Shown one piece after another: positions 19,713 through 56,962 of a stretch of DNA of 58,874 nt. Origin of the DNA: a virus. The stretch lies in IMG/VR virus record IMGVR_UViG_3300034104_003823, positions 1 through 58,874 of that record; one strand, 5' to 3'. A program made the translations under genes and the position numbers. The first letter of the stretch is position 1. Each line of letters opens with the position of its first letter. The notes beneath the pieces were generated by a model, which was not told the DNA's origin, did not search any database, and saw only the letters and a list, made by a program, of their open reading frames with translations.

Positions 19713-20614
19713 AAAAAATTGATGTATGTCTAAACGTATTGGGTAAACCATACCAGACAATAGTAACTTTAAAAAGTTTATTAAAACATTCTTCACAACA
19801 TATTGATAAAATATTTTTAATCGAAGAGGAAAACCAACCAATAGATTATAATTTTGATTTAATAAAAAATGAAGTAAATTATGATGGATTAATTAGGTTT
19901 AAACCAAAACATTTTTTGTGGGTAAATGGTACTGATTATAATTTATATCAAACAAATGAAGATTATAAATATTCAATAAGATATGAATATGGATTAAATA
20001 ATACTGATAAATCACATATATTATTAATTCATAATGATGTTTTTTTCCAAAAAGACATTGTTGGTGAGTTATTAAATGAAGATGAAAATTTTTTTGGTAT
20101 TGGTAGAGTTGGTCAATGTTGGAATTGTCCTTTGTTTTATGAAAATTTATGTAGTGGGGAAAAATTAAGTAAAAATTTAGAAAACAATTTTGATTATGAT
20201 TTCATATTTGATGTTATTTACAAACACAATACCACCAGAACTTTCATACATCAAAATAAAATTGATAAATTAAAACCATTACCGCTACCGGAATGTAGAA
20301 TAAACGAATGGTGTATGTTAATAAATGTTGATTTATATAGAAAAGAAGTTTTAGAAAATAAAACCGTTGTTCCATTTGGTGGTTACTTTATAATGGATAT
20401 TGGTGATTTGTGGTTTAAACAAATGGTTGATTTAGGATATAAATTTAAAAATTTTGACATAGATAAATACATAACACATGCGTATTTTTCTATTACCGGA
20501 AACGGTCATAGTTCATTATTTGATTCTAATAAATACCAAATTGAAGAAGTTGAAGCTAAAAAATATTACGAAGAAAATTTAAAAGATGATAACAATAATA
20601 TACTCAACACATAA
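19709..20614 (+). CDS. GT-A type glycosyltransferase-like protein (301 aa)
   Basis: The N-terminus VCLNVLGKPYQTIVTLKSLLKHS is a GT2-like opening, and HILLIHNDVFFQKDIVGELL places an N-D motif where GT-A enzymes have D-x-D. A Cys-containing stretch (GIGRVGQCWNCPLF) follows, then RINEWCMLINVDLYR, and HAYFSITGNGHSS near the C-terminus. The D-x-D is not canonical, so catalytic activity is less certain than for neighbours. It overlaps the next gene by 29 bases. Confidence 0.6.
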   Translation: MKKIDVCLNVLGKPYQTIVTLKSLLKHSSQHIDKIFLIEEENQPIDYNFDLIKNEVNYDGLIRFKPKHFLWVNGTDYNLYQTNEDYKYSIRYEYGLNNTDKSHILLIHNDVFFQKDIVGELLNEDENFFGIGRVGQCWNCPLFYENLCSGEKLSKNLENNFDYDFIFDVIYKHNTTRTFIHQNKIDKLKPLPLPECRINEWCMLINVDLYRKEVLENKTVVPFGGYFIMDIGDLWFKQMVDLGYKFKNFDIDKYITHAYFSITGNGHSSLFDSNKYQIEEVEAKKYYEENLKDDNNNILNT

Positions 20615-22097: not shown

Positions 22098-22825
22098 CAA
22101 GAAAACCAAAAATTAAAGAAGAACCCGAACAAACACAACAATTTTCAAGAAAAGATTTTATAAATTCAGTAATCAAGAAAAAACAAAGAAATAAATTTTT
22201 ATCGGAACAACAAGAAGAATATTATAATCTTTTAAAAAATAATCAAATAACAATTGCATCCGGACCTGCTGGTGTTGGTAAATCATTTATTGCTATGAAG
22301 GCAGCTGTTGATTTATTGATGGATTCGGACAATTCTTATGAAAAAATAATTATTGTTCGTCCGGCGGTTGAAGCTGAAGAGAAGTTGGGTAGTTTACCTG
22401 GAAACCTTGAAGAAAAATTGGACCCGTATATTTTCCCGTCTTACTATCTTTTAAATAAAATTATTGGTAAAGACGCTCGTGAAAAATTAAAGGAGGCCGA
22501 AGTTATTGAGGTATTCGCACTTGCATATATGAGGGGAATGAATATCGACAATTCAATTTTAATTTTTGAGGAAGCACAAAATTCAACACCAAATCAAATG
22601 AAATTATTATTGACAAGAATTGGTTTTAATAGTAAATTCTTTATATCTGGAGATCTTGAACAAACAGATAGGTATAAAGATAAAAGACAATCTGGTCTTT
22701 ATGATGCGTTGCAAAGATTTAAAGATATTAACGACATTGGGGTATATGATTTTAGAGATGCTAAAAATGTTAGAAATCCATTAATAGGTAAGATACTTAG
22801 TAAATATGAAGAAAATAGGGATTGA
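22094..22825 (+). CDS. phoH: PhoH-family ATPase (243 aa)
   Basis: Walker A is GPAGVGKS (residues 57-64), Walker B is SILIFEEAQN, and KLLLTRIGFNSKFFISGDLEQTD carries sensor I, as in PhoH proteins. These are RecA-fold ATPases, very common in marine and other large phages; a helicase or RNA-processing role has been proposed, but the phage function is unsettled. The short N-terminal extension (1-35) is basic and probably disordered. It overlaps both neighbours (4 and 20 bases), so it is embedded in the operon. Confidence 0.9.
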   Translation: MTRKPKIKEEPEQTQQFSRKDFINSVIKKKQRNKFLSEQQEEYYNLLKNNQITIASGPAGVGKSFIAMKAAVDLLMDSDNSYEKIIIVRPAVEAEEKLGSLPGNLEEKLDPYIFPSYYLLNKIIGKDAREKLKEAEVIEVFALAYMRGMNIDNSILIFEEAQNSTPNQMKLLLTRIGFNSKFFISGDLEQTDRYKDKRQSGLYDALQRFKDINDIGVYDFRDAKNVRNPLIGKILSKYEENRD

Positions 22826-23468
22826 CATTAATGGTGTTTTAAGAGATACTATTGAGAAATTTAAACAAGTATATGAAAAACACCTTATAGATAACTATCA
22901 AGATAATTTTGCCGGTAAGACATACAAACTAGATATGTCCGGCAATACTGAATTAGAAGAACAAGTAGAATCATTTAAGTATAAAATATTAAGTGATGTA
23001 ACATCTCTTGATTTGTCAAAACATTTTTCATTTCAGAATAAAGAAGAATTGTATTCATTTATGTATGAAGAATACACAATGGAACTATTTGGCCACGCAC
23101 CCTCAACTGAAATTAATTCATTTAATGTTTTAAATGAATTATATTACGAGTTAAGAGATAATTATGATTTATTATTATTATCTGATGAAATAGGTAAATC
23201 AAAACCAGCAACATTATTTTTTGTTTCAAAATTTGGATGTCTATTAGAACAAGTTTTATTCTTTTCAGAATCAACAAAAAATAGGGTTTGGGATAATGTT
23301 GATGTGTTATTAACCGCAAATCCAGATTTAATAAAAAATAAACCAGATAATAAAATTGTTATAAAATATAACACTAAATATAATGAAGATGTAGAAAGTG
23401 AATTTAAAATATCCACTTTATCTGATTTTGCTTTATTATTAAAAAAAATAGAAAGTGAATATGTTTAA
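22806..23468 (+). CDS. HAD-like (5'-nucleotidase type) protein with D-to-N change (220 aa)
   Basis: Motif I reads GIDINGVLRDT: the nucleophile Asp is present but the acid/base Asp two positions on is Asn. DLLLLSDE fits motif II, GKSKPATLFF gives the motif III Lys, and FFSESTKNRVWDNVDVLLTANPD stands where motif IV should be. The fold therefore looks like a small HAD phosphatase of the deoxynucleotidase kind, possibly inactive or with altered chemistry. It overlaps PhoH by 20 bases and the next small gene by 8. Confidence 0.6.
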   Translation: MKKIGIDINGVLRDTIEKFKQVYEKHLIDNYQDNFAGKTYKLDMSGNTELEEQVESFKYKILSDVTSLDLSKHFSFQNKEELYSFMYEEYTMELFGHAPSTEINSFNVLNELYYELRDNYDLLLLSDEIGKSKPATLFFVSKFGCLLEQVLFFSESTKNRVWDNVDVLLTANPDLIKNKPDNKIVIKYNTKYNEDVESEFKISTLSDFALLLKKIESEYV

Positions 23469-23760
23469 AATTTGGAATGAGTATTATTACTTGGATTTGG
23501 ATGCGTTGGAAGAATATGTCCAAATTAAACCGGAGAATAAAGAAAAAAAAGAAGATGATGAAGAAACTGAAATAAGAGATTCAGAAACACAAGTTCATTT
23601 AGTAAAATATGATACTTGTAAATTATTGATGGAAGTTATTTTCTTTAAAGAGAATGAAGAAATTGATGAAAAACTTGGACCTCAATCAAGTGAATTATCA
23701 ATTCCTTTTAAATTAGCATTTAATACACTTTTAAATAAAAAAATAATTAACAAATTTTAA
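23461..23760 (+). CDS. Small acidic unknown protein (99 aa)
   Basis: The ATG at 23461 (MFKIWNEYYYLDLDALEEYV) is preferred to a GTG two codons earlier; either way the start overlaps the end of the HAD-like gene. Residues 22-45 are highly charged (Lys/Glu), the rest is helical, and no domain is recognised. It lies 2 bases before the next glycosyltransferase. Function unknown. Confidence 0.6.
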   Translation: MFKIWNEYYYLDLDALEEYVQIKPENKEKKEDDEETEIRDSETQVHLVKYDTCKLLMEVIFFKENEEIDEKLGPQSSELSIPFKLAFNTLLNKKIINKF

Positions 23761-23762
23761 TT

Positions 23763-24824
23763 ATGGAACAAGAAAAATTACAAAAATTAGAAAGGTCAAT
23801 AGAAAACCTTAAAGAAAAAAAATCAAGAATTTATTTCTTAGTACAAGACACCAAAGGAAATGCAAAGGCTTCGATAGCATACATTTATGAAATGGCAATG
23901 ACTTTAAAAAAGAATGGTTACAACCCAATCATTTTACACGAAAAACCAGATTATTTTGGTGTTGGGAATTGGTTAGGTACGGAATATATGGACGAGTTAC
24001 CACACAAGTCAATTGATGGGACAAGTTTAGAAATATCACCAGAAGACTTTATCATAATTCCTGAAATTTATGGTTTTGTTATGGATCAAATTACAAAACT
24101 TCCTTGTGGTAAAGTTGTTCTTTGTCAGGCATATGACCATATTTTTGAGACCTTACAACCAGGACAAACTTGGTCTCAACTTGGTTTTTACAAATGTCTT
24201 ACAACTTCTGAAAAACAAAAGGAGTATATCGAAACAGTTATGAGAAATGTAACTTTTGATGTAATTACACCAACTGTTAGTGACAAATTTGAAAAACAAA
24301 AATTCCCACCAAAAACAATTGTTTCAATTCATACTAGGGACCCTAGAGATACTGTTAATTTTATTAAAACATTTTATGCTAAATTCCCACAATATAGATG
24401 GATTACGTTTAGAGATATGAGAGGTTTAAGTGTTGAACAATTTGCAAATGGTATGAAAGAAAGTTTTGTTTCAGTTTGGATTGATGCAACAAGTGGATTT
24501 GGTACATTCCCTTTAGAATCTATGAAAATGGGTGTTCCGGTTGTTGGTTTAGTTCCAAATATGGTTCCTGAATGGATGACTGAAGATAATGGTATTTGGA
24601 TAAATAATCAAAGTATGTTAGTAGATGTTGTTGCTGATTATATACAAAATTGGTTAGAAGATAATATCAATCCAGAATTATATAACGATATGGAAAAAAC
24701 ATCAAAAATTTATTCTGATAAAGAAAATTTTGATGTTGAGGTAACTAGAATATTTGATAGATGGTTATTAACAAGATTAGAATCATTTGAAGAACAATTA
24801 AATAAATTTCAAACTATAGAATAA
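23763..24824 (+). CDS. GT-B type glycosyltransferase (353 aa)
   Basis: After a short coiled-coil start (1-20) the N-terminal Rossmann unit reads RIYFLVQDTKGNAKASIAYIYEMAMTLKKNG. EDFIIIPEIYGFV and GKVVLCQAYDHIFETL follow. The C-terminal half has TIVSIHTRDPRDTVNFI and VSVWIDATSGFGTFPLESMKMGVPVVGLV, the E-x-x-x-x-G-V-P block that binds the nucleotide sugar in GT4-like enzymes. The protein is therefore probably a retaining GT-B transferase. It is one base from the following GT2 gene, so the two are likely to act together. Confidence 0.75.
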   Translation: MEQEKLQKLERSIENLKEKKSRIYFLVQDTKGNAKASIAYIYEMAMTLKKNGYNPIILHEKPDYFGVGNWLGTEYMDELPHKSIDGTSLEISPEDFIIIPEIYGFVMDQITKLPCGKVVLCQAYDHIFETLQPGQTWSQLGFYKCLTTSEKQKEYIETVMRNVTFDVITPTVSDKFEKQKFPPKTIVSIHTRDPRDTVNFIKTFYAKFPQYRWITFRDMRGLSVEQFANGMKESFVSVWIDATSGFGTFPLESMKMGVPVVGLVPNMVPEWMTEDNGIWINNQSMLVDVVADYIQNWLEDNINPELYNDMEKTSKIYSDKENFDVEVTRIFDRWLLTRLESFEEQLNKFQTIE

Positions 24825-24825
24825 T

Positions 24826-25632
24826 ATGGAAAACAATAAAAGTATATCTGTAATACTACCGATTAAATCGGCCAAAACTCCTTTTTTTGAGGATTATTTC
24901 AAAAAATGTATTGAGTCAATCAATAACCAAAAAGTTGGTATTGAAGAACTTATTATAGTTCACACAAAAGAAACGGCACTTACAAATCACATTCAAAATT
25001 ATGATTTTGGTTCGTTAAATGTTAGATTTCTTGAATGGCAGAATGAACCTAATTTTGCTGAACAAATAAATGCTGGAGTTGAATCCGCGACATCTGAATG
25101 GGTTTCTTTTTTTGAATTTGATGATGAATACTCAAATATCTGGTTTAAAAATGTTAAAGAATATATTGACATATATGGTAATATAGATTCTTTTTTACCA
25201 ATTGTTGTTGATACAGATGACAAGGGTGTTTTTGTTGGTTTTACAAATGAAGCAACCTTTGCTGCAAATATTTCAGATGAATTAGGTATTTTAACTAATG
25301 AAACATTACAAACATATCAAAACTTCCAATTTTCTGGTTTGGTAATTAAAAAACAAAAGTTTCTAGAATTTGGTAAATTAAAAAGTAATTTTAAATTAAC
25401 TTTTGGTTATGAGTTCTTTTTAAGAATGACAAACAATGGTGTTAAATTTTTAACGATTCCAAAAATTGGTTATAAGCATATGAATTTAAGAGATGGTTCA
25501 ATTTTCTGGAATTACAAAAACAGTGATGATAGATTGACAGAAGACGAAGTTGGGTTTTGGATTGATAAGGCTAAGAAAGAATATTTATTTATAAATCAAA
25601 GGGATATAAAATATGAACCCCAGGAAGTTTAA
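24826..25632 (+). CDS. GT2 glycosyltransferase (268 aa)
   Basis: ISVILPIKSAKTPFFEDYFKKCIESI is the GT-A start. INAGVESATSEWVSFFEFDDEYSN gives the A/G-x...D-D metal motif, and FGYEFFLRMTNNGVKFLTIP supplies the acceptor-side E-x-x-x-x-R block. Length is usual for the family. The stop overlaps the next start (TAATG), which couples it to the gp55-like sigma gene. Acceptor unknown. Confidence 0.75.
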   Translation: MENNKSISVILPIKSAKTPFFEDYFKKCIESINNQKVGIEELIIVHTKETALTNHIQNYDFGSLNVRFLEWQNEPNFAEQINAGVESATSEWVSFFEFDDEYSNIWFKNVKEYIDIYGNIDSFLPIVVDTDDKGVFVGFTNEATFAANISDELGILTNETLQTYQNFQFSGLVIKKQKFLEFGKLKSNFKLTFGYEFFLRMTNNGVKFLTIPKIGYKHMNLRDGSIFWNYKNSDDRLTEDEVGFWIDKAKKEYLFINQRDIKYEPQEV

Positions 25633-36373: not shown

Positions 36374-36814
36374 TGTGTACAACATTACGTGCATATGGTA
36401 AAACACTAAACATATTATTGCCCAAGTTTCCATCCAGAAAAATCCACCATTTAATAGAAAAAATAATGATATAAGATATAGTGGAATATAGAATTTAAAT
36501 TTTTTAAGTGACAACATTGATACTCCGGACATAACAAAAAAACTAACAGCCAAAACATTATGTAATACAAACCAACTCTCAACTGAAAATACAGTTAAAA
36601 GTAATAAAAGTATTGCTGGTATTCTCCATTTAGGTAAGTCAAAGAAAAAATAACTAACAAGAGCATTTGTAAAAATAAATAAAGGTTGTAAAGGTGTTGT
36701 CCAAGATTGTGATATTGAAATTAAATCCCCACATACAAAATAGATAATAAAAGGTTGCAACAGAGCAAGAACTGATGTAAACAACCTTTTTATTATATCA
36801 AATTTTTCTATCAT
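36344..36814 (-). CDS. Polytopic membrane protein (156 aa)
   Basis: About five hydrophobic segments (LALLQPFIIYFVCGDLIS, IPAILLLLLTVFSVESWFVL, VLAVSFFVMSGVSMLS, FYIPLYLISLFFLLNGGFFW, ICLVFYHMHVMLYTLWVG) give a small integral membrane protein with a conserved-looking H-x-H-V near the C-terminus. Its start overlaps the stop of the secreted-protein gene (ATGA), so the two are translated together. It may assist export or anchoring of that protein, or be host-derived like it. I do not recognise the family. Confidence 0.65.
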   Translation of the reverse strand: MIEKFDIIKRLFTSVLALLQPFIIYFVCGDLISISQSWTTPLQPLFIFTNALVSYFFFDLPKWRIPAILLLLLTVFSVESWFVLHNVLAVSFFVMSGVSMLSLKKFKFYIPLYLISLFFLLNGGFFWMETWAIICLVFYHMHVMLYTLWVGRNHPN

Positions 36815-38820
36815 CTAATTATTTTTCTCATAGTACCGTCTTCGTAAACTTCAAATACCAAACCTTTATAGTCTTCATTAACTTCTTGGCCGGACAAATT
36901 AATGTATTTAATGATTTTTTTACTTGAGAAATACCCTTGAATTGCAATTGGCCCAAATATTTCAAATTTACCGTCAATATCATATTGTATTAATCTATAA
37001 TATACAACATTTTCATTTCTATAATTATCTAAATATGTATAATTTATTTTTGACTGACTATTGTTTGCTGCCTGTTTTGTTGTTAAATATTTCCAATTTT
37101 CACCATCATCACTTCTTTCAACATTAAAATGAGATGAATTTTGTTCTGATGCTGTTGCCCATTTTAAACTATTAAATGTTGAATAACTTTTTCCCTCAAA
37201 GTAAAGTAATTCTACTGGCAAGGCAATAGGATTAGAAATTCTAACAGTATATTCTTCTATTTCACCATAACCATAACCAGTTGAATAATAAGCATCATTT
37301 GATGGTGTTGCATTCCAAACAGATAAAACCCTCATTAAAACGTCACCAGTTACAGCGTCTGATGGTACAGTAACTAACTGTGTTGTTGAGTTTGCTGGTG
37401 CTTTTTGTAAAACATTTTCTGTTGTTTGAAAAATTCCATCATTGTTATAATCAATCCATGTCGCATAACCTTGACCTGGACTAAGTGTGTTTGTCGCAGT
37501 AACACTTATTTGATATGGTTCTCCTTTAGTTAACTCAATAATTTGAGAAGTAAAATCTTGGTAAGCATCTCCATCATTTGTTGACGTATTGTTGATATTG
37601 TTTAATGTTACATTTGAAATATAGTCACCATCATCAATTCCTGTTGAGTATGTTGGTGCGTTTCTTAAATTTACACTAACAATATTACTAGTTCCAGAAG
37701 GACAGGTACCGTTTTTTGATGTTGATTTAAACCAAATTTGAGTTTGTTGTACATTCATTCTAATACTATATGGGTTTGCAGGATTACTTGTTGATCCTGC
37801 AACTGTAGTAAAATTGTCAAATGACCATTCAATTTTTGTAGTACTTCCTTCGTTACCACTTGTTGTTAATGTTGTCGCATCATTAACCGTTGTATTTGAT
37901 TTTGATGAGGTTAACGTACCACCATTTGTTGGTGTTGTACAAACTGTAACCGATGTTATATTAGCGGCAAACCCACCCCAAGTACCGACATTAGAAATAT
38001 CAGTTGTCCATCTAATTGTAAGTTGTCCTGACGCATTTTCCGCAGTCACATTAGGGGGTATTGTTGTACCATTAAGTGTTGCTAGTAATGTTGATGAGGT
38101 ATTTGGACCATCGTAAATGTATAGATAATCATAACTTGTTTCTAAATCCATTTGAGTGAATTCTAACTGTAACTTTTTTGTATTATCAGATGGTGTTAAT
38201 GTTATTGTTCTATTAACACTATTTGTATAACCACCAGCCATAGGGCCGGCAGGGCCAACATCGTCTGTTAATGTATATGTAAATGTTGAATTTAATGTTT
38301 GTGAACAAGCCCCAATCATAGGTATTAATGTGTTTTCACTTGAAACGGTTGATGTAATTCCTAAATCGTCCACATATCTTTCGTGTGTACCTGATCCTCT
38401 AGCATCGATTAATCTAATATAAACATTTGTTAAACCTAAAGCTCCAATATTTAATGAGTATTGTTGGTATGTTGTAGTAACAGTTGTTATAGACCCTCTA
38501 GTTGTCCAAGTTGTTCCATTTGGTGATGTTTGTATATTTAATGTCCAAGCAGTTGTGTTTGAACTTCTTCTATACCAAAATGTTAATACCCCAGGATTTG
38601 CAATTAATGGTGTTCTAATTGCGTCATTAAGACCATTAAATGTCAACATATTAGTTCCTGTTCTTACTGGTGTTGTACCATAAGGGACTGAAGTGTTTGT
38701 CCACGTACCCTTTTGTGTTGGTAGTGCAGAACTAAAACTTTCATAAAGAAAGTATTGGTTACATTGTGTAATTCCTATAAAAGAAATTAAAGTAAATAGT
38801 AAGATTAAAAAACTTTTCAT
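36811..38820 (-). CDS. Secreted CUB/GEVED protein with T9SS-like C-terminus (669 aa)
   Basis: It begins with a signal peptide (MKSFLILLFTLISFIGITQC), followed by a jelly-roll-like domain (40-155; VLTFWYRRSS, YIRLIDARGSG). A CUB domain at about 172-292 has CSQTLNSTFTYTLTDD, MDLETSYDYLYIYDGPN and TWGGFAANI. After a linker domain comes a GEVED domain at about 448-527 (ATWIDYNNDGIFQ ... GYGYGEIEEYTVRI). The C-terminal part (534-669; LPVELLYFEGK..., YYRLIQYDIDGKFEIFGPIA, YKGLVFEVYEDGTMRKIIR) is typical of type-IX-secreted proteins. Such proteins belong to Bacteroidota cells, so this is probably a gene of host origin. It lies just downstream of the capsid gene's terminator, an unusual place. Confidence 0.85.
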   Translation of the reverse strand: MKSFLILLFTLISFIGITQCNQYFLYESFSSALPTQKGTWTNTSVPYGTTPVRTGTNMLTFNGLNDAIRTPLIANPGVLTFWYRRSSNTTAWTLNIQTSPNGTTWTTRGSITTVTTTYQQYSLNIGALGLTNVYIRLIDARGSGTHERYVDDLGITSTVSSENTLIPMIGACSQTLNSTFTYTLTDDVGPAGPMAGGYTNSVNRTITLTPSDNTKKLQLEFTQMDLETSYDYLYIYDGPNTSSTLLATLNGTTIPPNVTAENASGQLTIRWTTDISNVGTWGGFAANITSVTVCTTPTNGGTLTSSKSNTTVNDATTLTTSGNEGSTTKIEWSFDNFTTVAGSTSNPANPYSIRMNVQQTQIWFKSTSKNGTCPSGTSNIVSVNLRNAPTYSTGIDDGDYISNVTLNNINNTSTNDGDAYQDFTSQIIELTKGEPYQISVTATNTLSPGQGYATWIDYNNDGIFQTTENVLQKAPANSTTQLVTVPSDAVTGDVLMRVLSVWNATPSNDAYYSTGYGYGEIEEYTVRISNPIALPVELLYFEGKSYSTFNSLKWATASEQNSSHFNVERSDDGENWKYLTTKQAANNSQSKINYTYLDNYRNENVVYYRLIQYDIDGKFEIFGPIAIQGYFSSKKIIKYINLSGQEVNEDYKGLVFEVYEDGTMRKIIR

Positions 38821-38966: not shown

Positions 38967-40814
38967 TTATCTTAATTCTCTTAAGTCAAATGTTCTAACT
39001 CCATCAACTGTGATTCTACCATAGAAACGGTTGTTAACGAATTTCTTAGCATATCTAGTCATTATACCTTTGATAGGTGTAAAGTTGAATGGGTTATACA
39101 TTGTAGGTGTCAATTGAAGAGGTACATACGGTGCGTAGATGTAACCAGTATCCAATAGAGATGTTCCTTTGTGACCAATCAAGATTTGATTTGGTGGGAA
39201 GTATGGATCTCTATAAACTTGGTATCTACCAGCCAATGTTCCAACTCTTTCAATACCCATATTGTATTGATCTTGCTCAGGTGAAGCGTTAGATACGTGG
39301 AAGTACTCAAGGTCATCAAAGATTGCAGAAACTTCAGATGAAACAACAATCCAGTTTGCACCACCTCTCAAAGTAGATTTGTGGATTTGTGCAGACAATT
39401 GGTTGATTGCTGTAATCAAAGTTTGGTTCCAATCTTTTTGAGTGTAAGAAGTTGTTAAGTTCAATCTTCTCCATCCGTTGTAATCCCAACGTAAGTTCCA
39501 AGCAGCACCTTTTCTCAAGTCTCTTAAGATTTCTCTATCGATTTCAGCAGCAACTTGTTCTGATAATAAAGCTGTTAATTCAGCTTCAGCATCGATGTTG
39601 TGGAATGCCGCAACGTCTTGAGCAAGTTCTGGTGACCATTGAGCTCTTAATTTTCTTTCTGTAACAGATACAGTTACTGACTCAAGATCAAATGATACTT
39701 CACCAATTTTGTCTTCAAATTCTAGTTCTTCATATCTTCTGTAAACAGTTGTGAAACCTGAATTTGGTAATGTTCCAATTGTTGATCCTGTATATCCATC
39801 AAGTGAATCTGCGTTACAACCAGCACATACTGGACAAGAAAGGTCAACTTCTAAATAGATACAACCATCTTGGTCACAAATATCATTGTATGATCCACCG
39901 TTACCTGCGTAAGGTGTTGCATTATTATTTGTAAATGTTGTTTGTTGTTGTCTTGAAGTTGGATTTACAATTCCTTTACCATATTGTTGAGTAACAACTC
40001 TAAACAATAATGATTTTGGATTTCCGTTGTCATCATAAAGTGCGTTACAAGTATCTGCAGTTGTAGTAAAATCTGTATTAGCAAAAATTCTTAAATCAGA
40101 AAGGAAAGTTTCACTATCAATTTCAGAACCATCAGGTCCGATTAATTTTCCAGTACCAGCGTAAGCAAAATCACAAAGTGCAATAATTACTTTTCTAACA
40201 TTTTTATTGTTATACTCACCATCAGCATCTTCAAGATTACCATTAACCCAAGCTTGTACAGTTGTGTCAGCTGTAACACCAGTCCAACGACCTTTAGAGT
40301 AATCAAACAATCCTGGAGGATCTAATGAAGCTTCAGAACCTTCATAAAATAAATCATAAAGATTTTTTTGGTAAGCGTTAGCTCCAGTATATCCAGCTGT
40401 AGTATCTTGTCCTGGGTTATTTGGGGAACCAATTGGTGCGTAGTGTGTTCCACCATTTCCTGGTTGAACCTCTTGATAACCTTGGATTTTAGGTACAAAG
40501 TAGAACAATTTACCAATAGGTAAGTTCATTGCTTGTACAGAAACGATATCGTTTGCTAACAATTTAGAGAAAACTCTTCTTACGATAGGGAAAACAACAG
40601 TTTCAAAAGCTCCGTTTGAACCTTCTGAAGTTGCTTCGTTAATCAAGAAAGAAGCTTGGTTTTCATACAACTGCGCAACATTTTCTTTTAGGTGGCCTCT
40701 AAGACCTTCTAGGAACCCTAATTTGTCCCATTTGTTAATTGTATCTTCTTTGATAACCTTAAGGTGCTTAAGACCGATGTTACCAACAAGACCTGATTCT
40801 AATAATGCTCCCAT
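38967..40814 (-). CDS. Major capsid protein, T4 gp23-like (615 aa)
   Basis: The N-terminal propeptide (TINKWDKLGFLEGLRGHLKE, YENQASFLINEATSEG) aligns with T4 gp23, including the processing site: I-N-E at 58-60 followed by Ala fits cleavage after E60. The core includes PIVRRVFSKLLANDIVSVQA and TERKLRAQWSPELAQDVAAF plus AEAELTALLSEQVAAEIDRE, a gp23 signature. The protein is about 90 residues longer than T4 gp23, owing to an insert around 130-350 with a Cys cluster (C313, C318, C327, C330, C333). It is followed by a strong terminator and preceded by a late-type element. Confidence 0.95.
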   Translation of the reverse strand: MGALLESGLVGNIGLKHLKVIKEDTINKWDKLGFLEGLRGHLKENVAQLYENQASFLINEATSEGSNGAFETVVFPIVRRVFSKLLANDIVSVQAMNLPIGKLFYFVPKIQGYQEVQPGNGGTHYAPIGSPNNPGQDTTAGYTGANAYQKNLYDLFYEGSEASLDPPGLFDYSKGRWTGVTADTTVQAWVNGNLEDADGEYNNKNVRKVIIALCDFAYAGTGKLIGPDGSEIDSETFLSDLRIFANTDFTTTADTCNALYDDNGNPKSLLFRVVTQQYGKGIVNPTSRQQQTTFTNNNATPYAGNGGSYNDICDQDGCIYLEVDLSCPVCAGCNADSLDGYTGSTIGTLPNSGFTTVYRRYEELEFEDKIGEVSFDLESVTVSVTERKLRAQWSPELAQDVAAFHNIDAEAELTALLSEQVAAEIDREILRDLRKGAAWNLRWDYNGWRRLNLTTSYTQKDWNQTLITAINQLSAQIHKSTLRGGANWIVVSSEVSAIFDDLEYFHVSNASPEQDQYNMGIERVGTLAGRYQVYRDPYFPPNQILIGHKGTSLLDTGYIYAPYVPLQLTPTMYNPFNFTPIKGIMTRYAKKFVNNRFYGRITVDGVRTFDLRELR

Positions 40815-40895: not shown

Positions 40896-42560
40896 TTATT
40901 TAATTTTATTCATCAAATCCTTCATTCTTAAGAATTGTGGATTTTCATAAGTTTTTGACTCAATCAAATTAACAGCTGAACCAGTAGATGGAGTTTTAAC
41001 AAAATTTCTTTCGATAGACTCGTTAATTGTATTATCTCCTTTTGATTCTCCTGTTAATTCATTTTTGATAGCTCTATAAAGATTTTTAGATTCTTTAAGA
41101 TTTTCAACATTATCAAATCTTTTTAAGATGTTAATCTTTTCTTGTTTTGTTGTTGAATGTTCTGTAAACAATCTAGTAGCATACGCTAAATTTGAATTAA
41201 ATACTGCCACTTCATTTAATTTATTTCTAAATACATCAAGCGCTTTTTTATATTCTTGATTTTTACTTCTAAGAGTTTCAAATTCTTCAATACTTTCTTT
41301 TCTTAAATGTCTTGGCGCAGTTCTTGGTTTGTCTAAACCTTCTCTACCCCATCTTTTTCCATTTCCAAGAGTTCTTGAAGCTTCTTTTGTCTCAACTTTT
41401 TTTATTTTTTTATCTTTGGCAACACCTTCTTTATATTCAAATTTTGCTTTTCCGGTTCCCATTGTTTTGTTAACTTTTTTCTTAACAGTTTTAAAACCAC
41501 CACCCATATTAGGTTTTTTATCATATCTGAATTTAGAGGCATTTCCCATACCTAATCCTTTAGCTTTAAATTTTGAAGATTCTGCAATGTATTCGTCTTC
41601 GACATTAGGTTCTTCCATATCTTCAAACATTTCAGTTCCAAATTCATCTTCTTCCATATCTTCAAACATTTCATCTTCTTCCATATCTTCAAACATTTCA
41701 TCTTCTTCCATATCTTCAAACATTTCGTCTTCTTCCATATCTTCAAACATTTCATCTTCTTCCATATCTTCAAACATTTCATCTTCTTCCATATCTTCAA
41801 ACATTTCAGTTCCAAATTCATCTTCTTCCATATCTTCAAATAATTCTGGTTCCATACTCTCAACATCAAAATCATCTTCAAACATTTCAGTTTCAAATTC
41901 GTATTCTTCCATATCTTCATACATTTCTCTTCCACCATCGTCAGAAACTTCTATTTCATAAATTGTTTCTTCACCAAACATTTGATCAATGTCCCCTGTG
42001 GAAATTCCAGATTCTTCATCTTCTTCAAATTCGTAAAGCTCTTCATCCTCACCTTCACCTTCGTAAGATTCGCCAAGTTGGACTAAGTATTCTATGTCAT
42101 TATTTTCGTCGTCAATATGTAACATATCACCATCCTTTACTACAGTGATTCCATCAGTTGGTTTCATTTTTTTGAAAACAGCAAATAATTCAGAATCTGA
42201 TGCTTGTGTCATATTAACTGGTTCGACTTCACCGTCTGTATCCAACATATTTGTGCCCATCATATCTGTTTCGTCATCTTCACTTGAATCCCCTTCTTCA
42301 TCACCTAAATTATCAGTATCATCTTCCTCATCTTCCGAATCGGTAGCTTCAACATCTTCTAAATCAGCTTCGTCACCCGACTCAGCATCAACATCAATCT
42401 CTTCTTCATCTTCTTCTTCGTTTAGAGATTCTTTTACTAATGATTTGATTTCTTCCTTCATTGTCGAAGAAAGTATTCCTTGTGCATTTCTTTTTAGAGA
42501 TTCTTCCAAATTTTTAATTTGTAAAAATGTATCCTCTACTAAATTTTCTTTTTTAGACAT
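40896..42560 (-). CDS. Acidic prohead scaffold/core protein, gp22-like (554 aa)
   Basis: It lies directly upstream of the capsid gene, where T4 has the gene 22 scaffold. The protein is extremely acidic (Asp/Glu-rich from 45 to 330), with a tandem MFEDMEEDE block. A basic stretch (FKTVKKKVNKTMGTGKAKFE) and a long helical C-terminal region (ETLRSKNQEYKKALDVFRNK) follow. Sequence identity with gp22 is not visible; role is inferred from position, composition and helical end. A helix IKSLVKESLNEEE near residue 45 resembles the [L/I]-x-E sites in other head proteins. It is probably degraded by the protease during maturation. Confidence 0.7.
   Translation of the reverse strand: MSKKENLVEDTFLQIKNLEESLKRNAQGILSSTMKEEIKSLVKESLNEEEDEEEIDVDAESGDEADLEDVEATDSEDEEDDTDNLGDEEGDSSEDDETDMMGTNMLDTDGEVEPVNMTQASDSELFAVFKKMKPTDGITVVKDGDMLHIDDENNDIEYLVQLGESYEGEGEDEELYEFEEDEESGISTGDIDQMFGEETIYEIEVSDDGGREMYEDMEEYEFETEMFEDDFDVESMEPELFEDMEEDEFGTEMFEDMEEDEMFEDMEEDEMFEDMEEDEMFEDMEEDEMFEDMEEDEMFEDMEEDEFGTEMFEDMEEPNVEDEYIAESSKFKAKGLGMGNASKFRYDKKPNMGGGFKTVKKKVNKTMGTGKAKFEYKEGVAKDKKIKKVETKEASRTLGNGKRWGREGLDKPRTAPRHLRKESIEEFETLRSKNQEYKKALDVFRNKLNEVAVFNSNLAYATRLFTEHSTTKQEKINILKRFDNVENLKESKNLYRAIKNELTGESKGDNTINESIERNFVKTPSTGSAVNLIESKTYENPQFLRMKDLMNKIK
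41611..41844 (-). repeat. 27-bp tandem repeat encoding MFEDMEEDE
   Basis: Six consecutive 27-base units (nine codons) encode MFEDMEEDE, differing by a single C/T change at one site. They are flanked by diverged copies ending in FGTE. The near identity at DNA level points to recent slippage or unequal exchange. Confidence 0.85.
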
Positions 42561-42699: not shown

Positions 42700-42915
42700 T
42701 TACTCTATTACTTCATCAATTTTACTTTCAGTAATTGATGTTATTCTCCAGTCCATTGTATAGTTTTCATAAACCTTTGTTACTTTGGCCTCAACATCAG
42801 TTGGTGTATATCCCAAAACTAATTTTTCTTCTTTAACTTTTTTTACTCTACCAGATTCGCTATCCAAAAGATCAGTAGAAATTTTTGCTACAAAATATTT
42901 TTCTCCTTGTTCCAT
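42700..42915 (-). CDS. DUF4494-like small protein (71 aa)
   Basis: KYFVAKISTDLLDSESGRVKKVKEEKLVLG plus YTPTDVEAKVTKVYENYTMDWRITSITESKI follows the pattern of DUF4494 (a W/Y-F opening, G-x-x-K-K-V-x-E-x-x-L-V, T-x-x-E-A, then I-x-x-I). That family is found in Bacteroidota and their phages; no function is known. It starts 6 bases after the protease stop and ends at a terminator, so it is co-transcribed with the prohead protease. Confidence 0.65.
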   Translation of the reverse strand: MEQGEKYFVAKISTDLLDSESGRVKKVKEEKLVLGYTPTDVEAKVTKVYENYTMDWRITSITESKIDEVIE

Positions 42916-42921
42916 AAATTA

Positions 42922-43638
42922 TTATTTTCCCAAATAATCGGATAATCTTTTCATTAAGTCAAGTGATTTGTTGCCACTCTCACCAATATTTCTTTCAACA
43001 GCCATTTTCTTTTCTTCGTCCAAATTCTCTTCAAATTTCATTCTATCATCTTTATTCAAAAATAAATAAGCACCAGGTGTTGATGGTGAAGAAACTAAGT
43101 CAAAACAGATTAATTCAAAATCATCTTGTACTTCATTTTGTTCTCCAACTTTTTTAAGTGAGCCAACACCACGAGAAGAAATACCAAGTGTTACACCTTG
43201 TCTAAGATAGTTTGCGGCTAAATCACCCTTTGTAGAACAAATACCTCTTTCGTGAAAACCAGGACTTGTTAATAATTTTAATTTACCAAGTAATACCGGA
43301 CCATCCCACCAAACATCAGTTATAATGTGAGATGCTCGATCCAAATCAATCAATGATGATTCCGGGTGATTTAACTCAGATAGAGCAGTTCCTTTCTCAA
43401 TCATTTTTTTATAATTTTCGGCTTCTCTTTTTAAAATCTTTTCCGGATATATTCTACCATTTCTATTTGGTGTGTTGTATTTTTGTAATACAGCATAAAA
43501 CTCAAATGGTTTTGAGTGGTCCAAAAAAGTTTTTGATTCCATTATATAATGGTTGTTTTCTGTTTTTGGATTTATATAACCAGCGTCGTATTCGATAAGA
43601 ATCCCTTTTCCAGTTTCGTTTGGTCCTAATATTCTCAT
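42922..43638 (-). CDS. Prohead maturation protease, T4 gp21-like (238 aa)
   Basis: YNTPNRNGRIYPEKILKREA is followed by ELNHPE with the catalytic His (H91), then GKLKLLTSPG and LGISSRGVGSLKKV with the catalytic Ser in S154-S155, and DLVSSPSTPGA. Motif order fits serine prohead proteases of the T4 gp21 type, whose consensus cut is after [L/I]-x-E. It should process the capsid protein (after E60) and core proteins. It lies between portal-adjacent genes and scaffold, as in T4. Confidence 0.9.
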   Translation of the reverse strand: MRILGPNETGKGILIEYDAGYINPKTENNHYIMESKTFLDHSKPFEFYAVLQKYNTPNRNGRIYPEKILKREAENYKKMIEKGTALSELNHPESSLIDLDRASHIITDVWWDGPVLLGKLKLLTSPGFHERGICSTKGDLAANYLRQGVTLGISSRGVGSLKKVGEQNEVQDDFELICFDLVSSPSTPGAYLFLNKDDRMKFEENLDEEKKMAVERNIGESGNKSLDLMKRLSDYLGK

Positions 43639-44180: not shown

Positions 44181-44189
44181 TATATTTAT
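44181..44189 (+). promoter_or_regulatory. Late-promoter-like TATATTTAT element for bS21
   Basis: TTATATATTTATCAAATAAATCG on the plus strand, 18 bases before the bS21 start. There is no Shine-Dalgarno site. Confidence 0.5.
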
Positions 44190-44207
44190 CAAATAAATCG
44201 TAAAAAT

Positions 44208-44399
44208 ATGTTAATAGTAAATGTGGATAAGAGGGGTGGTATTGAAAAGGCCCTAAAAGAATTAAAAAGTAAGGTAATTAAAACAAGGCAAAATTCATTA
44301 TTAAATAATAGAAAAGAATTTACAAAAAAATCTGTAAGAAAAAGACAACAAAAAATTAAAGCAATATATGTTCAAAAAACATTTAAATCAAACAATTAA
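44208..44399 (+). CDS. rpsU: Ribosomal protein bS21 homologue (63 aa)
   Basis: The 63 residues read as bS21 from start to end: MLIVNVDKRGGIEKALKELK, SKVIKTRQNSLLNNRKEFTK, KSVRKRQQKIKAIYVQ. The N-terminal strand, I-E-K-A-L-K-x-x-K and the basic R-x-x-F-T-K-x-S-x-x-K-R helix match Bacteroidota S21 (about 63-65 aa). bS21 sits next to the anti-Shine-Dalgarno in the 30S platform. Here it is the only plus-strand gene among minus-strand head genes and has its own late-type element. Its stop overlaps that of the gene at 44396 (TTAA). Confidence 0.9.
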   Translation: MLIVNVDKRGGIEKALKELKSKVIKTRQNSLLNNRKEFTKKSVRKRQQKIKAIYVQKTFKSNN

Positions 44400-45132: not shown

Positions 45133-45140
45133 ATAAATAT
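45133..45140 (-). promoter_or_regulatory. Late-promoter-like ATATTTAT element
   Basis: CTAATATTTATAATAAAAAA on the minus strand, overlapping the portal stop and 14 bases before the start at 45118. Confidence 0.45.
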
Positions 45141-46960
45141 TAGTCACCTAACAATTTTAACAATTCATCTTCAATTGACCCCAATGAATTTTTTCCTTTT
45201 GATAAATCAATATATGAATCACCCATTAAATCATCACTTTCTAAAAGTATATTTAAATTATCATTTTTCTTTTCTTCCGGTAATGTTTCACCTCCTGGTG
45301 CTGGCGGTGGTGCTCCTCCTGCTTCTCCTCCCGGTGGTGGAGCCATTCCCATATCACCTCCCGGTGGTGGTGCTGGTGCGGCAGCTCCTACTTGTGTTGT
45401 TCCAGTTACTTGTTTGTATAATTTATCAACAGTATCAAACAATCCTGTTTTTGTAATTATTGTTGCCGTATTATCCAATTCAGCTGACACCGCTCTTTCT
45501 AATCTTATTTGTTGTATATCAAGTTTAATATCTTCATCAGAAAAACCAAATATATGTTTCTTAGCCCAAGTAGCAGAGGTAGCCTGTAATGATTTTGGAA
45601 TTTCAGCAACAAGTTCTTTATATAACGCAACTTTTTCTTTCCAGACCTCAACCATTAACAAGTCAGCTTGTTTTGATGGATTTGTAAGACCTAATGTAAA
45701 ATTCTGTAATTCGTCCTCAAACCCTAATAAAAATAAATGAATGATTGCAATTTTATTTAATTCTGAAATTACACTTTTTTGAATCTTATTTATTGTTCTA
45801 GCAAAACGAATATCCAGTAATGCCAAATTTTTTCCATCACCAAGGGCTTCCTCAAAACCAAGATATGCTTTTGGTATTCTTAATGCCGTTACAAGTTTCT
45901 TTTGAATATACTCAATATCGGCAATTTCGGACATATTTTGTCCACCTGGTAAAGTATCAATTGGGCTTGGTGCGGCAGGATCTCTCACGGGGACAAAATA
46001 ATCTTGGTCAACGGCCATTTGATTAAATCTTAAATCAACATTTCCAGTTTTATTATCAACAACTTGATCTCTTTTAAATTTGTTTGCAACCCTTTGTACG
46101 TAAGCCTCAACATCTTTGTCATCCATATTCCCAACATATACTTTAAACACCCGTCTTTCTGGGGCTCTTGCAGTTCTATATATTAACATCGCGTCTTCGG
46201 ACAACAATAACTGTTTCCAAATACGGCGGGCTTTTTCTAACATTGATGTTCCGTATGGTAATTTTCTATCATCACCTAATAATCTAAAATGTGCTATTTC
46301 CCAAGTATTAAATTCCAAATCTTTTGTTTTCCAATGAAATCTTAAACCTTTTTGTTTTGGGTCAACCTCAGCATTTACTGATTTTGCTGCCATACCTCTT
46401 TCCAATCTTTCAATTTCAATGTTTGGTAATTGCATACAACCAACAATACCTTTTTCTGGGTCCAATTTTAGATATACAAAGTTGTCACCATATTTACATG
46501 TATTTCTAATCCACATTGGTAAATTTGTATTAACATCAAGCGCATTTATAAATAAATCCTCAAGAATTGTTCTAATTCTTTTTGATTCAGAATAAATTTG
46601 TAACAGTTTACCGTCTTTATCCGGTGTTGTTGATTCTTCGGAATATATATCAAGAGCTGTTGATATTTCCGGTGTAAACTCCATTGATTCGTAATCGTAA
46701 AATGATGCCAATCTTGTTGGTTCATAATATACCGCTTGTGTGTAAAGATTGTTTTCAATCTTTGCCCATTGACCGGCAAGATACATTGTTTGTTGTGCTT
46801 GTAATTTTTGTCTTTCAAATTCAAGTTTGTCATTTGTCTTTAACAAGACATCCCTATCAAGCTTATATGTTGGGTAATCTTGATTTAATAGTGAGTTTGG
46901 CCCAAAGGTTTGTGACAACCTTTGCCATACTGTTAAATTATCATTTTTATTTTGTTCCAT
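45140..46960 (-). CDS. Portal protein, T4 gp20-like (606 aa)
   Basis: FYDYESMEFTPEISTALDIY, WIRNTCKYGDNFVYLKLDPE, GLRFHWKTKDLEFNTWEIAH, FRLLGDDRKLPYGTSMLEKA and RAPERRVFKVYVGNM are the recognisable core blocks of T4-superfamily portals. RFARTINKIQKSVISELNKI follows in the crown region. The C-terminal 90 residues carry a Pro/Gly/Ala-rich flexible stretch (APPPGGDMGMAPPPGGEAGG) before a short acidic end. This protein forms the dodecameric ring at the packaging vertex and docks terminase; it lies just downstream of the terminase gene, as in T4. Confidence 0.9.
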   Translation of the reverse strand: MEQNKNDNLTVWQRLSQTFGPNSLLNQDYPTYKLDRDVLLKTNDKLEFERQKLQAQQTMYLAGQWAKIENNLYTQAVYYEPTRLASFYDYESMEFTPEISTALDIYSEESTTPDKDGKLLQIYSESKRIRTILEDLFINALDVNTNLPMWIRNTCKYGDNFVYLKLDPEKGIVGCMQLPNIEIERLERGMAAKSVNAEVDPKQKGLRFHWKTKDLEFNTWEIAHFRLLGDDRKLPYGTSMLEKARRIWKQLLLSEDAMLIYRTARAPERRVFKVYVGNMDDKDVEAYVQRVANKFKRDQVVDNKTGNVDLRFNQMAVDQDYFVPVRDPAAPSPIDTLPGGQNMSEIADIEYIQKKLVTALRIPKAYLGFEEALGDGKNLALLDIRFARTINKIQKSVISELNKIAIIHLFLLGFEDELQNFTLGLTNPSKQADLLMVEVWKEKVALYKELVAEIPKSLQATSATWAKKHIFGFSDEDIKLDIQQIRLERAVSAELDNTATIITKTGLFDTVDKLYKQVTGTTQVGAAAPAPPPGGDMGMAPPPGGEAGGAPPPAPGGETLPEEKKNDNLNILLESDDLMGDSYIDLSKGKNSLGSIEDELLKLLGD

Positions 46961-47258: not shown

Positions 47259-49025
47259 TTACATTTTTGTACCAAATAACCAACCGTATTTTATATAATC
47301 ATTTTTTGATGCTTCATTATTTCTATTATGATTTTGATTTGGTCCGGTTGGAATATATGGGTTAAAATTTATTATTTCTTTAACACTTTCATTTTCTGTT
47401 ACAGTCCAAGAGTTAATCATAACTTTTGTTTTTTCTACAACTTTTTCTAGTTTTGAGAATGAAGATTCACCAACGTATATTGCCATAGATATACCCATAA
47501 TAAGGTCATCGTGTTGTCCTTTTTGATGGTCTGGTCTTCCATTTACATAAATAAATGTATTCATTTCATTATAAAGTCGTGAACTTCTAATTTTAAATTT
47601 ATGTCTAACATATTCTTCAAATGCCGCAATAATTTGAACTCTTTTGTTATTAAAATTAATTCCTGGAATTTTATCTTGAGCTTTTGGGTTGTAAGCCCAA
47701 ATGTTTGTAGAGTCAACACCATCAATATATAAATTTTTATAACCGAGTTCTTGCATTTTTCTTACTGTTGTAACACCCATACCACCTGTAATATCCACAA
47801 CACAAAATGCGTTATACATTAGTCCCCATTTATATGCAATTTCAGCTAAAGCATCTGGTGGGATTTTCCCAACATATTCAAAAACTTGTTCTCTATCATC
47901 AAAATCAATTATTTGAATTGATGAAAAGTCTTCACTATCTCCACGGGATACGTCAACACCCATAATGTATTTATGTCCCTCAATTGGTTCCTTCCACATC
48001 CAAAGAGCATTTCCCATCATTTTATTTGGTGCATCTTGTAGTGTATTTTGTTTGATATAATCAAGTTGTTTTCCGTCAAATACATTATCTCCGGAACCAA
48101 GAAATTCACAGTTAAGCTCCTGATTTATTTTTCTTTTATCATACTTTAATTTTTTAACCATCTTCTCATACCAAGTAGAACACGGTTTGTATCCTTGTGA
48201 AAAATATTCTTTTATTTGTTCGTAGTCCCTATCATATGGGTCTGTATCTGCAAATGAAACATTACCAGAATGGTCTCTCTCATCTTTGTGTAATAAATAA
48301 TCAACCATATCATCTGTTGGAACCAAATACAAATCCTTTGAGTATCTTGGGTCTTTCCACCAAAACATTTCAGAGATTTTAAAGTTATTTATTCCTTTTG
48401 TTGCTTGATTGTAAATTTCATAATAAATTGGGTCATAACCGTTTGGTGTTGATACGACAATTACTTTACCACCTGTAGAAAGTGATGCCATACAGGCCGC
48501 CCAGAAATCACCGTCAGCTTCAATAAACGCCGCCTCATCAAAAATAAGAATTGTTGGTGTATAACCTCTTAACGCATCTCTTGATGTTGCAACGGCTTTT
48601 ACTTCACAACCGTTTGTCAATTTATAATGTCTTTGTGAATTTTTATCTGCTGAAAACCCAGTTCCAACCCAACTAGGCCATTGCTCAACAAACGCCCTAA
48701 TTTTATTAGCCATCTCCATTGATGTATCAAGTTTGTTGGCAATAATTAGAATTTTTTCTGGTCTTTCTTTTTTTGCAAAAACTAATCTTTTTGATGTCCA
48801 AGCGGCAGTTACTGTCGATACACCGGCTTGACGATATTTTAAAGCGATATTTTCTTCATATTCTTCATAGTCATCTAACAATGAAACTTGATCTGGAAAT
48901 AATTCCAAAGGAACATATTTTGATACTGTATTATCATATGTTTGTAGATATGTTCTTAATGCGTATGGTGTATCCTTCATACATTTTACATACTCTAACA
49001 TTACTTGTTCTTTAGTTAAACCCAT
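47259..49025 (-). CDS. Terminase large subunit, T4 gp17-like (588 aa)
   Basis: The ATPase domain has an atypical Walker A (KYRQAGVST, 63-71, with no G-K-[ST]) and Walker B TILIFDEAAF (D163, E164), followed by the coupling motif VVSTPNG. The nuclease domain has GVDVSRGDSEDF (D358), CVVDITGGMG (D411) and GQHDDLIMG (D506/D507), the RNase H-fold acidic triad. It powers DNA packaging and cuts concatemers. Gene order terminase, small gene, portal, core, protease, scaffold, capsid follows T4. A late-type element precedes the start. Confidence 0.95.
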   Translation of the reverse strand: MGLTKEQVMLEYVKCMKDTPYALRTYLQTYDNTVSKYVPLELFPDQVSLLDDYEEYEENIALKYRQAGVSTVTAAWTSKRLVFAKKERPEKILIIANKLDTSMEMANKIRAFVEQWPSWVGTGFSADKNSQRHYKLTNGCEVKAVATSRDALRGYTPTILIFDEAAFIEADGDFWAACMASLSTGGKVIVVSTPNGYDPIYYEIYNQATKGINNFKISEMFWWKDPRYSKDLYLVPTDDMVDYLLHKDERDHSGNVSFADTDPYDRDYEQIKEYFSQGYKPCSTWYEKMVKKLKYDKRKINQELNCEFLGSGDNVFDGKQLDYIKQNTLQDAPNKMMGNALWMWKEPIEGHKYIMGVDVSRGDSEDFSSIQIIDFDDREQVFEYVGKIPPDALAEIAYKWGLMYNAFCVVDITGGMGVTTVRKMQELGYKNLYIDGVDSTNIWAYNPKAQDKIPGINFNNKRVQIIAAFEEYVRHKFKIRSSRLYNEMNTFIYVNGRPDHQKGQHDDLIMGISMAIYVGESSFSKLEKVVEKTKVMINSWTVTENESVKEIINFNPYIPTGPNQNHNRNNEASKNDYIKYGWLFGTKM

Positions 49026-54898: not shown

Positions 54899-56962
54899 AT
54901 GGGATTAGAATTTATTGATGACAACGACAAAAACAAAAAAAAGGGTGATGGATTAACACCAGTTTTAGACAATTTTAGCAGAGATTTAAACAAACTAGCT
55001 ATTGAAGGTAAATTAGATCCGGTTGTTGGTAGAGAAAAAGAAATTATGAGGATTGCTCAAGTTCTTTCGAGAAGAAAAAAGAATAATCCAATAATTGTTG
55101 GTGAACCTGGATGTGGTAAAACTGCAATTGTTGAGGGTTTAGCAATGAAAATAATTGATGGTGATTGTCCTAAAAATCTTGCTGACAAAAGAATTGTTTC
55201 ATTAGATATGAATTCTGTTGTTGCCGGAACAAAATATAGAGGTCAATTTGAGGAAAGAATGAAGGTAATTTTAGAAGAATTACAAAATTCGCCAAACATA
55301 ATTATTTTTATTGATGAAATTCATACAATTGTTGGTGCTGGGAGTTCGTCAGGTTCTTTAGATGCTTCAAATATTTTTAAACCATCATTAGCTAGAGGTG
55401 AAATTCAATGTATTGGTGCAACAACACTTGACGAGTATAGGAAACATTTTGAAAAAGATGGAGCTCTAGAAAGAAGATTCCAAAAAATTATTGTGGACCC
55501 ATCTACAAAAGAAGAAACTTTTCAAATACTAAAAAATAGTAAAGAAAAATACGAACAACATCACAAAGTAACTTATTCTGATGAAGTTTTGACTTTATGT
55601 GTTGAATTAGCTGATAGATATATTACAGACCGAGAGTTTCCTGATAAAGCATTTGATATTTTAGATGAGGTTGGGTCAAGAATGCAAATTGATATAAAAT
55701 TACCAGAACATATTGAGGATTTAAAACAAGAGCTTAATGACATTAAAAAAGAAAAAGTTGATGTTATTAAAAAACAAAAATATGAATTAGCAGCAGAACT
55801 TCGTGATAGAGAAAAAAATGTTATAAACAAACTAGAGGAAGAAAAAAAGAAATTTGAGGACGACTTAAAAAATAGTAAAAGAGGTATTCCGGAAGATTTA
55901 ATTTATGATGTTGTATCAAATATGACAAAAATTCCAGTAAGTAAAATTAATATTGATGAGAAAAATTCTTTGGTTAATTTAGAAAATTCATTAAACAATA
56001 GTGTTATTGGACAGGAGGAAGCTGTTAAGAAAATTTCAAAATCAATTAGGAGAAATAGAGTTGGTATTAAGGATCCAAATAGACCAATTGGTTCATTTAT
56101 ATTCCTTGGCTCAACCGGTGTTGGTAAAACATTTTTAGCAAAGAAATTAGCAAAGGAAATTTTTGGTAGTGAAGATAGTTTGATTCGTGTTGATATGTCA
56201 GAATACCAAGAAAAACATACAATATCAAGACTTATCGGTTCTCCTCCAGGATATGTTGGTCACGAAGAAGGTGGACAATTAACAGAACAAGTTAAAAACA
56301 AACCATATTCAGTTATTTTATTTGATGAAATTGAGAAAGCAAATAAAGATATTTTCTCAACATTACTTCAAATGTTAGACGATGGTCATATGACAGATGG
56401 TCTTGGTAGAAAGATTAACTTTAAGAATTGTTTAATTATTATGACATCAAATATCGGTGTTAGAAAAGTTCAAGATTTTGGTTCCGGAGTTGGTTTTAAA
56501 ACAAATAATGATAGTGAGGCCGTACAAGAAGAATACAAAAGAGATGTTCTTAAAAAAGAATTAAGTAAGTTTTTTGCACCCGAATTTTTAAATAGAATTG
56601 ATGATGTTGTAATTTTCAACTCACTTAAAAAAGAACACATTGATAAAATTGTAAAACTTGAAATTGATAGATTAATTGAAAGATTAGAATCAATGAAGTA
56701 TAAAATTACATATGAACAATCAGTTATTGAACTAATCGCAAAAGTTGGATTTGATGACCAGTATGGTGCAAGACCAATAAAAAGAGCTATCCAGGATAAA
56801 ATTGAGGATTTAATTTCTGAAAAAATTTTAACTAATGAGGTTTTAGAAGAAAAAGAATATATGTTATTTGTTAAAGGAGAAGGTGATGACCAAACAATAG
56901 ATATTGAAAGTAGGGAAACACCAGAACCAAAGAAAAGGGGTAGAAAGAAAAAGGAGGATTAA
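54899..56962 (+). CDS. ClpC-like AAA+ unfoldase lacking the N-domain (687 aa)
   Basis: Two AAA+ modules. D1 has Walker A GEPGCGKT (68-75), Walker B IIIFIDE (to E140) and arginine finger ERR (191-193). D2 has GSTGVGKT (404-411), VILFDE, and GSPPGYVGHEEGG. Between them lies KQKYELAAELRDREK (about 292-306), a UVR-like motif as in ClpC. FGSGVGF (527-533) resembles the VGF loop by which ClpC docks on ClpP. The usual 150-residue Clp N-domain is missing, so substrate delivery must be different. A C-terminal basic tail (PKKRGRKKKED) is unusual. It probably unfolds host or phage proteins with host ClpP. Confidence 0.9.
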   Translation: MGLEFIDDNDKNKKKGDGLTPVLDNFSRDLNKLAIEGKLDPVVGREKEIMRIAQVLSRRKKNNPIIVGEPGCGKTAIVEGLAMKIIDGDCPKNLADKRIVSLDMNSVVAGTKYRGQFEERMKVILEELQNSPNIIIFIDEIHTIVGAGSSSGSLDASNIFKPSLARGEIQCIGATTLDEYRKHFEKDGALERRFQKIIVDPSTKEETFQILKNSKEKYEQHHKVTYSDEVLTLCVELADRYITDREFPDKAFDILDEVGSRMQIDIKLPEHIEDLKQELNDIKKEKVDVIKKQKYELAAELRDREKNVINKLEEEKKKFEDDLKNSKRGIPEDLIYDVVSNMTKIPVSKINIDEKNSLVNLENSLNNSVIGQEEAVKKISKSIRRNRVGIKDPNRPIGSFIFLGSTGVGKTFLAKKLAKEIFGSEDSLIRVDMSEYQEKHTISRLIGSPPGYVGHEEGGQLTEQVKNKPYSVILFDEIEKANKDIFSTLLQMLDDGHMTDGLGRKINFKNCLIIMTSNIGVRKVQDFGSGVGFKTNNDSEAVQEEYKRDVLKKELSKFFAPEFLNRIDDVVIFNSLKKEHIDKIVKLEIDRLIERLESMKYKITYEQSVIELIAKVGFDDQYGARPIKRAIQDKIEDLISEKILTNEVLEEKEYMLFVKGEGDDQTIDIESRETPEPKKRGRKKKED

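Follow-up and report, generated by a model that had tools for sequence, protein, structure and literature searches.

The closest described relatives of this locus are the bS21-encoding Bacteroidetes jumbo phages of Chen et al. 2022, which fall into clades a to e and have genomes of 293 to 331 kb (PMC9723584). Late bS21 expression has been measured in that work and a substitution model proposed, and the gene, its location, the lake-phage setting, the argument from Tyr54 and the ribosome-takeover hypothesis have all been published there (PMC9723584); gene, place and hypothesis are therefore already known. A phage-encoded bS21 of alphaproteobacterial type, with an alphaproteobacterial host, is found in Pelagibacter phage HTVC008M, and this protein enters Escherichia coli 70S ribosomes (Mizuno et al. 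2019, PMC6375957). On the host side, Tyr54 of Flavobacterium johnsoniae bS21 stacks on A1534 of the 16S rRNA 3' tail (McNutt et al. 2023, PMC9976891; PDB 7jil). Loss of bS21 lowers initiation on mRNAs that lack a Shine-Dalgarno (SD) sequence, and the F. johnsoniae rpsU mRNA itself has an extended SD and is translated better by bS21-free ribosomes, which amounts to autoregulation (PMC9976891). What we add to this picture is modest: a phage-specific block at residues 18 to 33, a single phage clade, the lack of an SD in the phage gene set against the SD of host rpsU, and a limit on the proposed bias toward SD-less mRNAs.

The window analyzed here, the whole of a linear virus contig of 58,874 bases, carries a bS21 gene whose product is MLIVNVDKRGGIEKALKELKSKVIKTRQNSLLNNRKEFTKKSVRKRQQKIKAIYVQKTFKSNN (Table 1). 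The protein passed the gathering cutoff of Pfam Ribosomal_S21 (PF01165; 31.9 bits versus 27), and the nearest solved structures, aligned over residues 1 to 57, were the Bacteroidota bS21 chains of 9i5v (E 1.5e-5) and 7jil (E 1.8e-4), the latter from F. johnsoniae. The median dN/dS of 0.16 among 39 distinct relatives and the presence of relatives on 242 IMG/VR stretches indicate that the reading frame is not a chance one, and the gene is under purifying selection. The minus-strand reading was also translated and merely confirmed that the bS21 gene lies on the plus strand. When predicted with an alignment, the structure comprised three helices (residues 12 to 26, 28 to 34 and 41 to 62; pLDDT 82, pTM 0.37), and a Foldseek search with this model returned PDB matches that were all ribosome entries, none of them significant (best E value, 0.55); a single-sequence model, consisting of one long helix, was set aside. 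Among the phage records searched, no relative of the bS21 exceeded 54% identity, the relatives there being all uncultured, and PHROGs gave no family above chance for bS21 or either of its neighbors.

Table 1. Positions of the bS21 gene, its signals and the surrounding head genes in the window
Feature	Coordinates	Strand	Description and basis
Phage bS21 gene	44208..44399	+	ATG...TAA, 63 aa; ORF, Pfam S21, PDB matches, dN/dS
Late-type element	44181..44192	+	TATATTTATCAA; TATTTAT part begins 25 nt before the bS21 start codon; pattern search
Leader region	44193..44207	+	ATAAATCGTAAAAAT; without Shine-Dalgarno site
Phage-specific block, codons 18-33	44259..44306	+	ELKSKVIKTRQNSLLN, versus host RFKRKFDKTG...LR; 76 phage versus 150 host sequences
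Tyr54 codon	44367..44369	+	Alignment; role in F. johnsoniae from PMC9976891
Divergent neighbor, 155 aa	43660..44127	-	Hypothetical; strictly linked to bS21
Convergent neighbor, 240 aa	44396..45118	-	Hypothetical; stop overlaps bS21 stop; ORF list
Prohead protease, T4 gp21 type (Peptidase_S77)	42922..43638	-	Pfam 1.4e-23
Major capsid protein (MCP), Gp23 type	38967..40814	-	Pfam 7e-73
Portal protein, T4 gp20 type	45140..46960	-	Pfam 3.3e-78
Terminase large subunit (TerL)	47259..49025	-	Pfam 5.4e-12; T4-like phages

The bS21 gene lies antisense to the flanking MCP, protease, portal and TerL genes, between two hypothetical genes. The first-pass annotation had placed it in the middle of the head operon on the opposite strand; the strand and the head genes stand, and the supposed operon is better called a cluster, one with several late-type elements. 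Both this placement and the linked opposite-strand neighbor are those of the phages of Chen et al., with which the locus also shares an aromatic residue 54 and the same substitution hypothesis, and we found no feature that sets the present phage apart from them. At least one recognizable head-region neighbor, always on the opposite strand, was present in 79 of the 80 best IMG/VR relatives, the exception (L071) having its bS21 in another setting, and an antisense bS21 was found at 78 of 78 loci of the 155-aa gene with enough flank; because the best 80 matches were used each time, these counts speak for the close group only. The 155-aa protein had no credible family match in Pfam, PHROGs or NCBIfam and no relative among the phage records searched, and its gene is possibly the counterpart of bS21_CN of Chen et al. 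The query sequences for this protein and for TerL lacked their initial codon, with no effect on the outcome. The 240-aa neighbor occurs in most relatives at 43 to 60% identity. The convergent stops have a hairpin here (-6.7 kcal/mol) but not in the relatives examined, and the idea of a conserved terminator was rejected. One relative (L201) lies on a 304-kb contig, and since relatives occur on contigs up to this size, the present contig is probably part of a jumbo phage genome.

Several other genes of the window were recorded in passing. Between the capsid and protease genes, an acidic protein (40896-42560, minus strand) contains EDMEEDEMF units repeated near 41552-41938; its location points to a scaffold or core protein. 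A short DUF4494 protein that matches only the latter half of its Pfam model (42700-42915, minus strand) adjoins the protease and is 89 to 100% identical in relatives, and a CUB and GEVED domain protein (36811-38820, minus strand) adjoins the capsid gene. The plus strand carries a run of several glycosyltransferase genes (20586-25632) and, at 54899-56962, a ClpA/ClpC/ClpB-like double AAA unfoldase that lacks an N-domain and has GVGF at the place of the ClpP-binding loops. Of 10 large related viral records, 8 encode an AAA_2 protein, and a search of 10 viral records for a phage-encoded ClpP found none. McNutt et al. have speculated that such phages may encode a protease directed against host bS21 (PMC9976891).

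We then compared the phage proteins with their host counterparts column by column. The first-pass annotation had read the full length as Bacteroidota bS21, which holds for the two ends of the protein; residues 18 to 33 are near-invariant in the phages and found only there (76 phage versus 150 host sequences), while the C-terminal part that faces the anti-SD sequence is host-like. Phage and host share their commonest residues at K17, K20, K22, L32, R35, K40, S42, R46, A52, Y54 and Q56, and the phage proteins differ from the 150 host sequences at E18, L19, S21, V23, I24, R27, Q28, N29, N33 and K41; divergence at residues 21, 23, 25 and 28 had been reported by Chen et al. (PMC9723584). The same annotation had tied its reading to conservation of the residues that contact the rRNA, and at Tyr54 this conservation was found: position 54, a tyrosine here, was Y in 87%, F in 9% and H in 3% of the 76 phage sequences and thus aromatic in about 99%. 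Compared with F. johnsoniae bS21, the phage protein shows about 41% identity over residues 1 to 58, with Tyr54 and the C-terminal part in common and the block at 18 to 33 as the difference. This block lies near the mRNA path and may tune the choice of mRNA.

One score points the other way. Against the NCBIfam equivalog model TIGR00030, the protein reached 19.8 bits, under the cutoff of 28.95, compared with 44.8 to 54.3 for host controls and 29.8 and 23.7 for two other phage proteins (L071 and L009, respectively), and we have therefore filed it as a divergent phage homologue of bS21, not as a certified equivalog. This shortfall speaks against substitution for the host protein. Together with the location among head genes, it would fit a bS21-derived RNA-binding or head-associated protein that is no longer ribosomal, and packaging into the virion was also raised by Chen et al. 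(PMC9723584). However, Tyr54 and other ribosome-facing C-terminal residues are well kept, and we regard such a role away from the ribosome as very improbable.

In a tree of 168 rows and 64 columns, built with host rpsU products as the first-pass annotation had proposed, the phage proteins formed one clade, which a starred branch (96) sets apart and which belongs to the Flavobacteriaceae half (85 support). Its earliest branch was L071, whose bS21 (4993-5187) has part-host, part-phage sequence (KTRQVRELQNRKEF) and stands beside other genes, outside the head cluster. The best bacterial match to the phage protein was an SD-less Flavobacteriaceae copy (L082, 55% identity). On that ground, the phage gene may derive from this paralogue, which the tree does not join firmly to the phage clade.

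Upstream of the gene, the late-type element that had been noted for bS21 was borne out by its enrichment. In the window, 17 of the 55 genes have TATTTAT in the 50 nt preceding them (mean of 3.2 and maximum of 9 in 500 shuffles). Among 64 distinct viral bS21 leaders, 52 contain TATWTATCA (shuffled mean, 0.4; maximum, 4), and all but one of the others have a close variant, for example, TATGTATCAA or TATTTATATCAA. The late box of phage T4 is TATAAATA. From this likeness and from the position before head genes, we infer that the TAT[AT]TAT element is a late promoter, a reading in agreement with the late bS21 expression that Chen et al. measured (PMC9723584). The leader between element and start codon was described earlier as SD-less, like those of other phage genes, and the calculated pairing with the 16S rRNA tail agrees: the duplex energy was +0.5 kcal/mol, and -7 kcal/mol or better was reached by just 2 of 57 leaders in the window and by none of the 64 distinct viral bS21 leaders. 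By contrast, the bS21 leader of a 735-kb phage (LR756501.1 542927; L362) contains an SD-like AAAGGAGGA.

The host genes were less uniform. Of 79 rpsU leaders in a first host set, mostly Cyclobacteriaceae, 62 had an extended SD (at or below -13 kcal/mol). In a second set of 81 rpsU genes, mostly from the wider class, 18 leaders reached -13 kcal/mol or better and only 24 had a strong SD, and the proposition that host rpsU always carries an SD was dropped. Two or three bS21 genes were present in 35 of 80 genomes from the family that includes the Lutibacter genome (L289-L358, e.g., G189, G192 and G227; L082 and L129). In all 26 multicopy Flavobacteriaceae-type genomes whose copies were read together, exactly one copy had an SD (-17 or better) and the remaining copies had none. 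The SD-less second copies (L082, L129) resemble the phage gene in lacking an SD and, in some cases, in having KKSV and Q28; they differ in being chromosomal and in having a block of their own, KHRNxKxMQNL in most. In Lutibacter and Mesonia, an acetyltransferase-like gene follows the SD-less copy. These multicopy sets are possibly a host system of specialized ribosomes; the catalogue of organisms with extra bS21 genes compiled by McNutt et al. has no Bacteroidota among its entries (PMC9976891).

Taken at the level of sequence, these features allow a mechanism to which we give even chances, namely, that a T4-like, probably jumbo, Bacteroidota myophage carries a bS21 homologue that is made late, put into 30S subunits and used in a takeover free of feedback. 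A late-type promoter of its own would drive production of the phage protein late in infection, and the protein would replace host bS21 in 30S subunits, a proposal of the first-pass annotation that remains plausible given the retention of Tyr54 and the entry of the HTVC008M protein into E. coli ribosomes. By keeping the 16S rRNA 3' tail masked, it would let initiation on A-rich, SD-less leaders continue. The further suggestion in that annotation, a bias toward SD-less phage mRNAs, is doubtful: nearly all Bacteroidia mRNAs lack an SD, and bS21-replete ribosomes already prefer SD-less mRNAs (PMC9976891). SD-less status by itself therefore cannot tell phage mRNAs from those of the host, and any true preference for phage mRNAs needs another source, for example, the block at 18 to 33.

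The only clearly defined target for an SD effect is the host rpsU gene. The phage gene, having no SD, could escape the rpsU autoregulation loop, and its product would not be subject to the SD-dependent feedback that keeps the host gene in check. By occupying 30S subunits, phage bS21 would hold host rpsU down, depriving it of the bS21-free ribosomes that it needs, and the takeover would reinforce itself. In a stronger form, which we think unlikely, the feedback is turned on the host: SD-less bS21 from a late promoter fills the 30S subunits and displaces host bS21 across the pool, and the block at 18 to 33 favors phage leaders. Escape from autoregulation may not apply to the host of this phage, as a strong SD was present in only 24 of the 81 rpsU genes of the wider set.

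A plainer account, somewhat unlikely in our estimate, is that the phage protein is a stand-in that tops up bS21 and keeps late ribosomes replete while mRNA preference stays unchanged. bS21 ranks among the last of the 30S proteins and among those most readily lost, the phage protein has kept Tyr54 and the C-terminal part, and the phage mRNAs are of the SD-less kind on which initiation falls when bS21 is lost (PMC9976891), all of which would suit such a supply; the near-invariant phage-only block suggests instead that function was changed and not copied. A poisoning role is possible because Pelagiphage bS21 left E. coli ribosomes almost inactive, with in vitro translation cut to about 5% (PMC6375957). 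Here, phage bS21 would block initiation on host mRNAs and phage translation would be spared by another factor, such as the 155-aa protein to which it is strictly linked. We consider this quite improbable, since the Pelagiphage test crossed bacterial classes, expression alongside capsid genes is late for a shutoff, and the 155-aa protein is without known activity.

This phage adds to the viruses that carry ribosomal components, and it does so in what is probably a host group where bS21 decides the choice of mRNA. If the phage protein escapes rpsU autoregulation, F. johnsoniae would offer a ready genetic system for testing virus-built specialized ribosomes.
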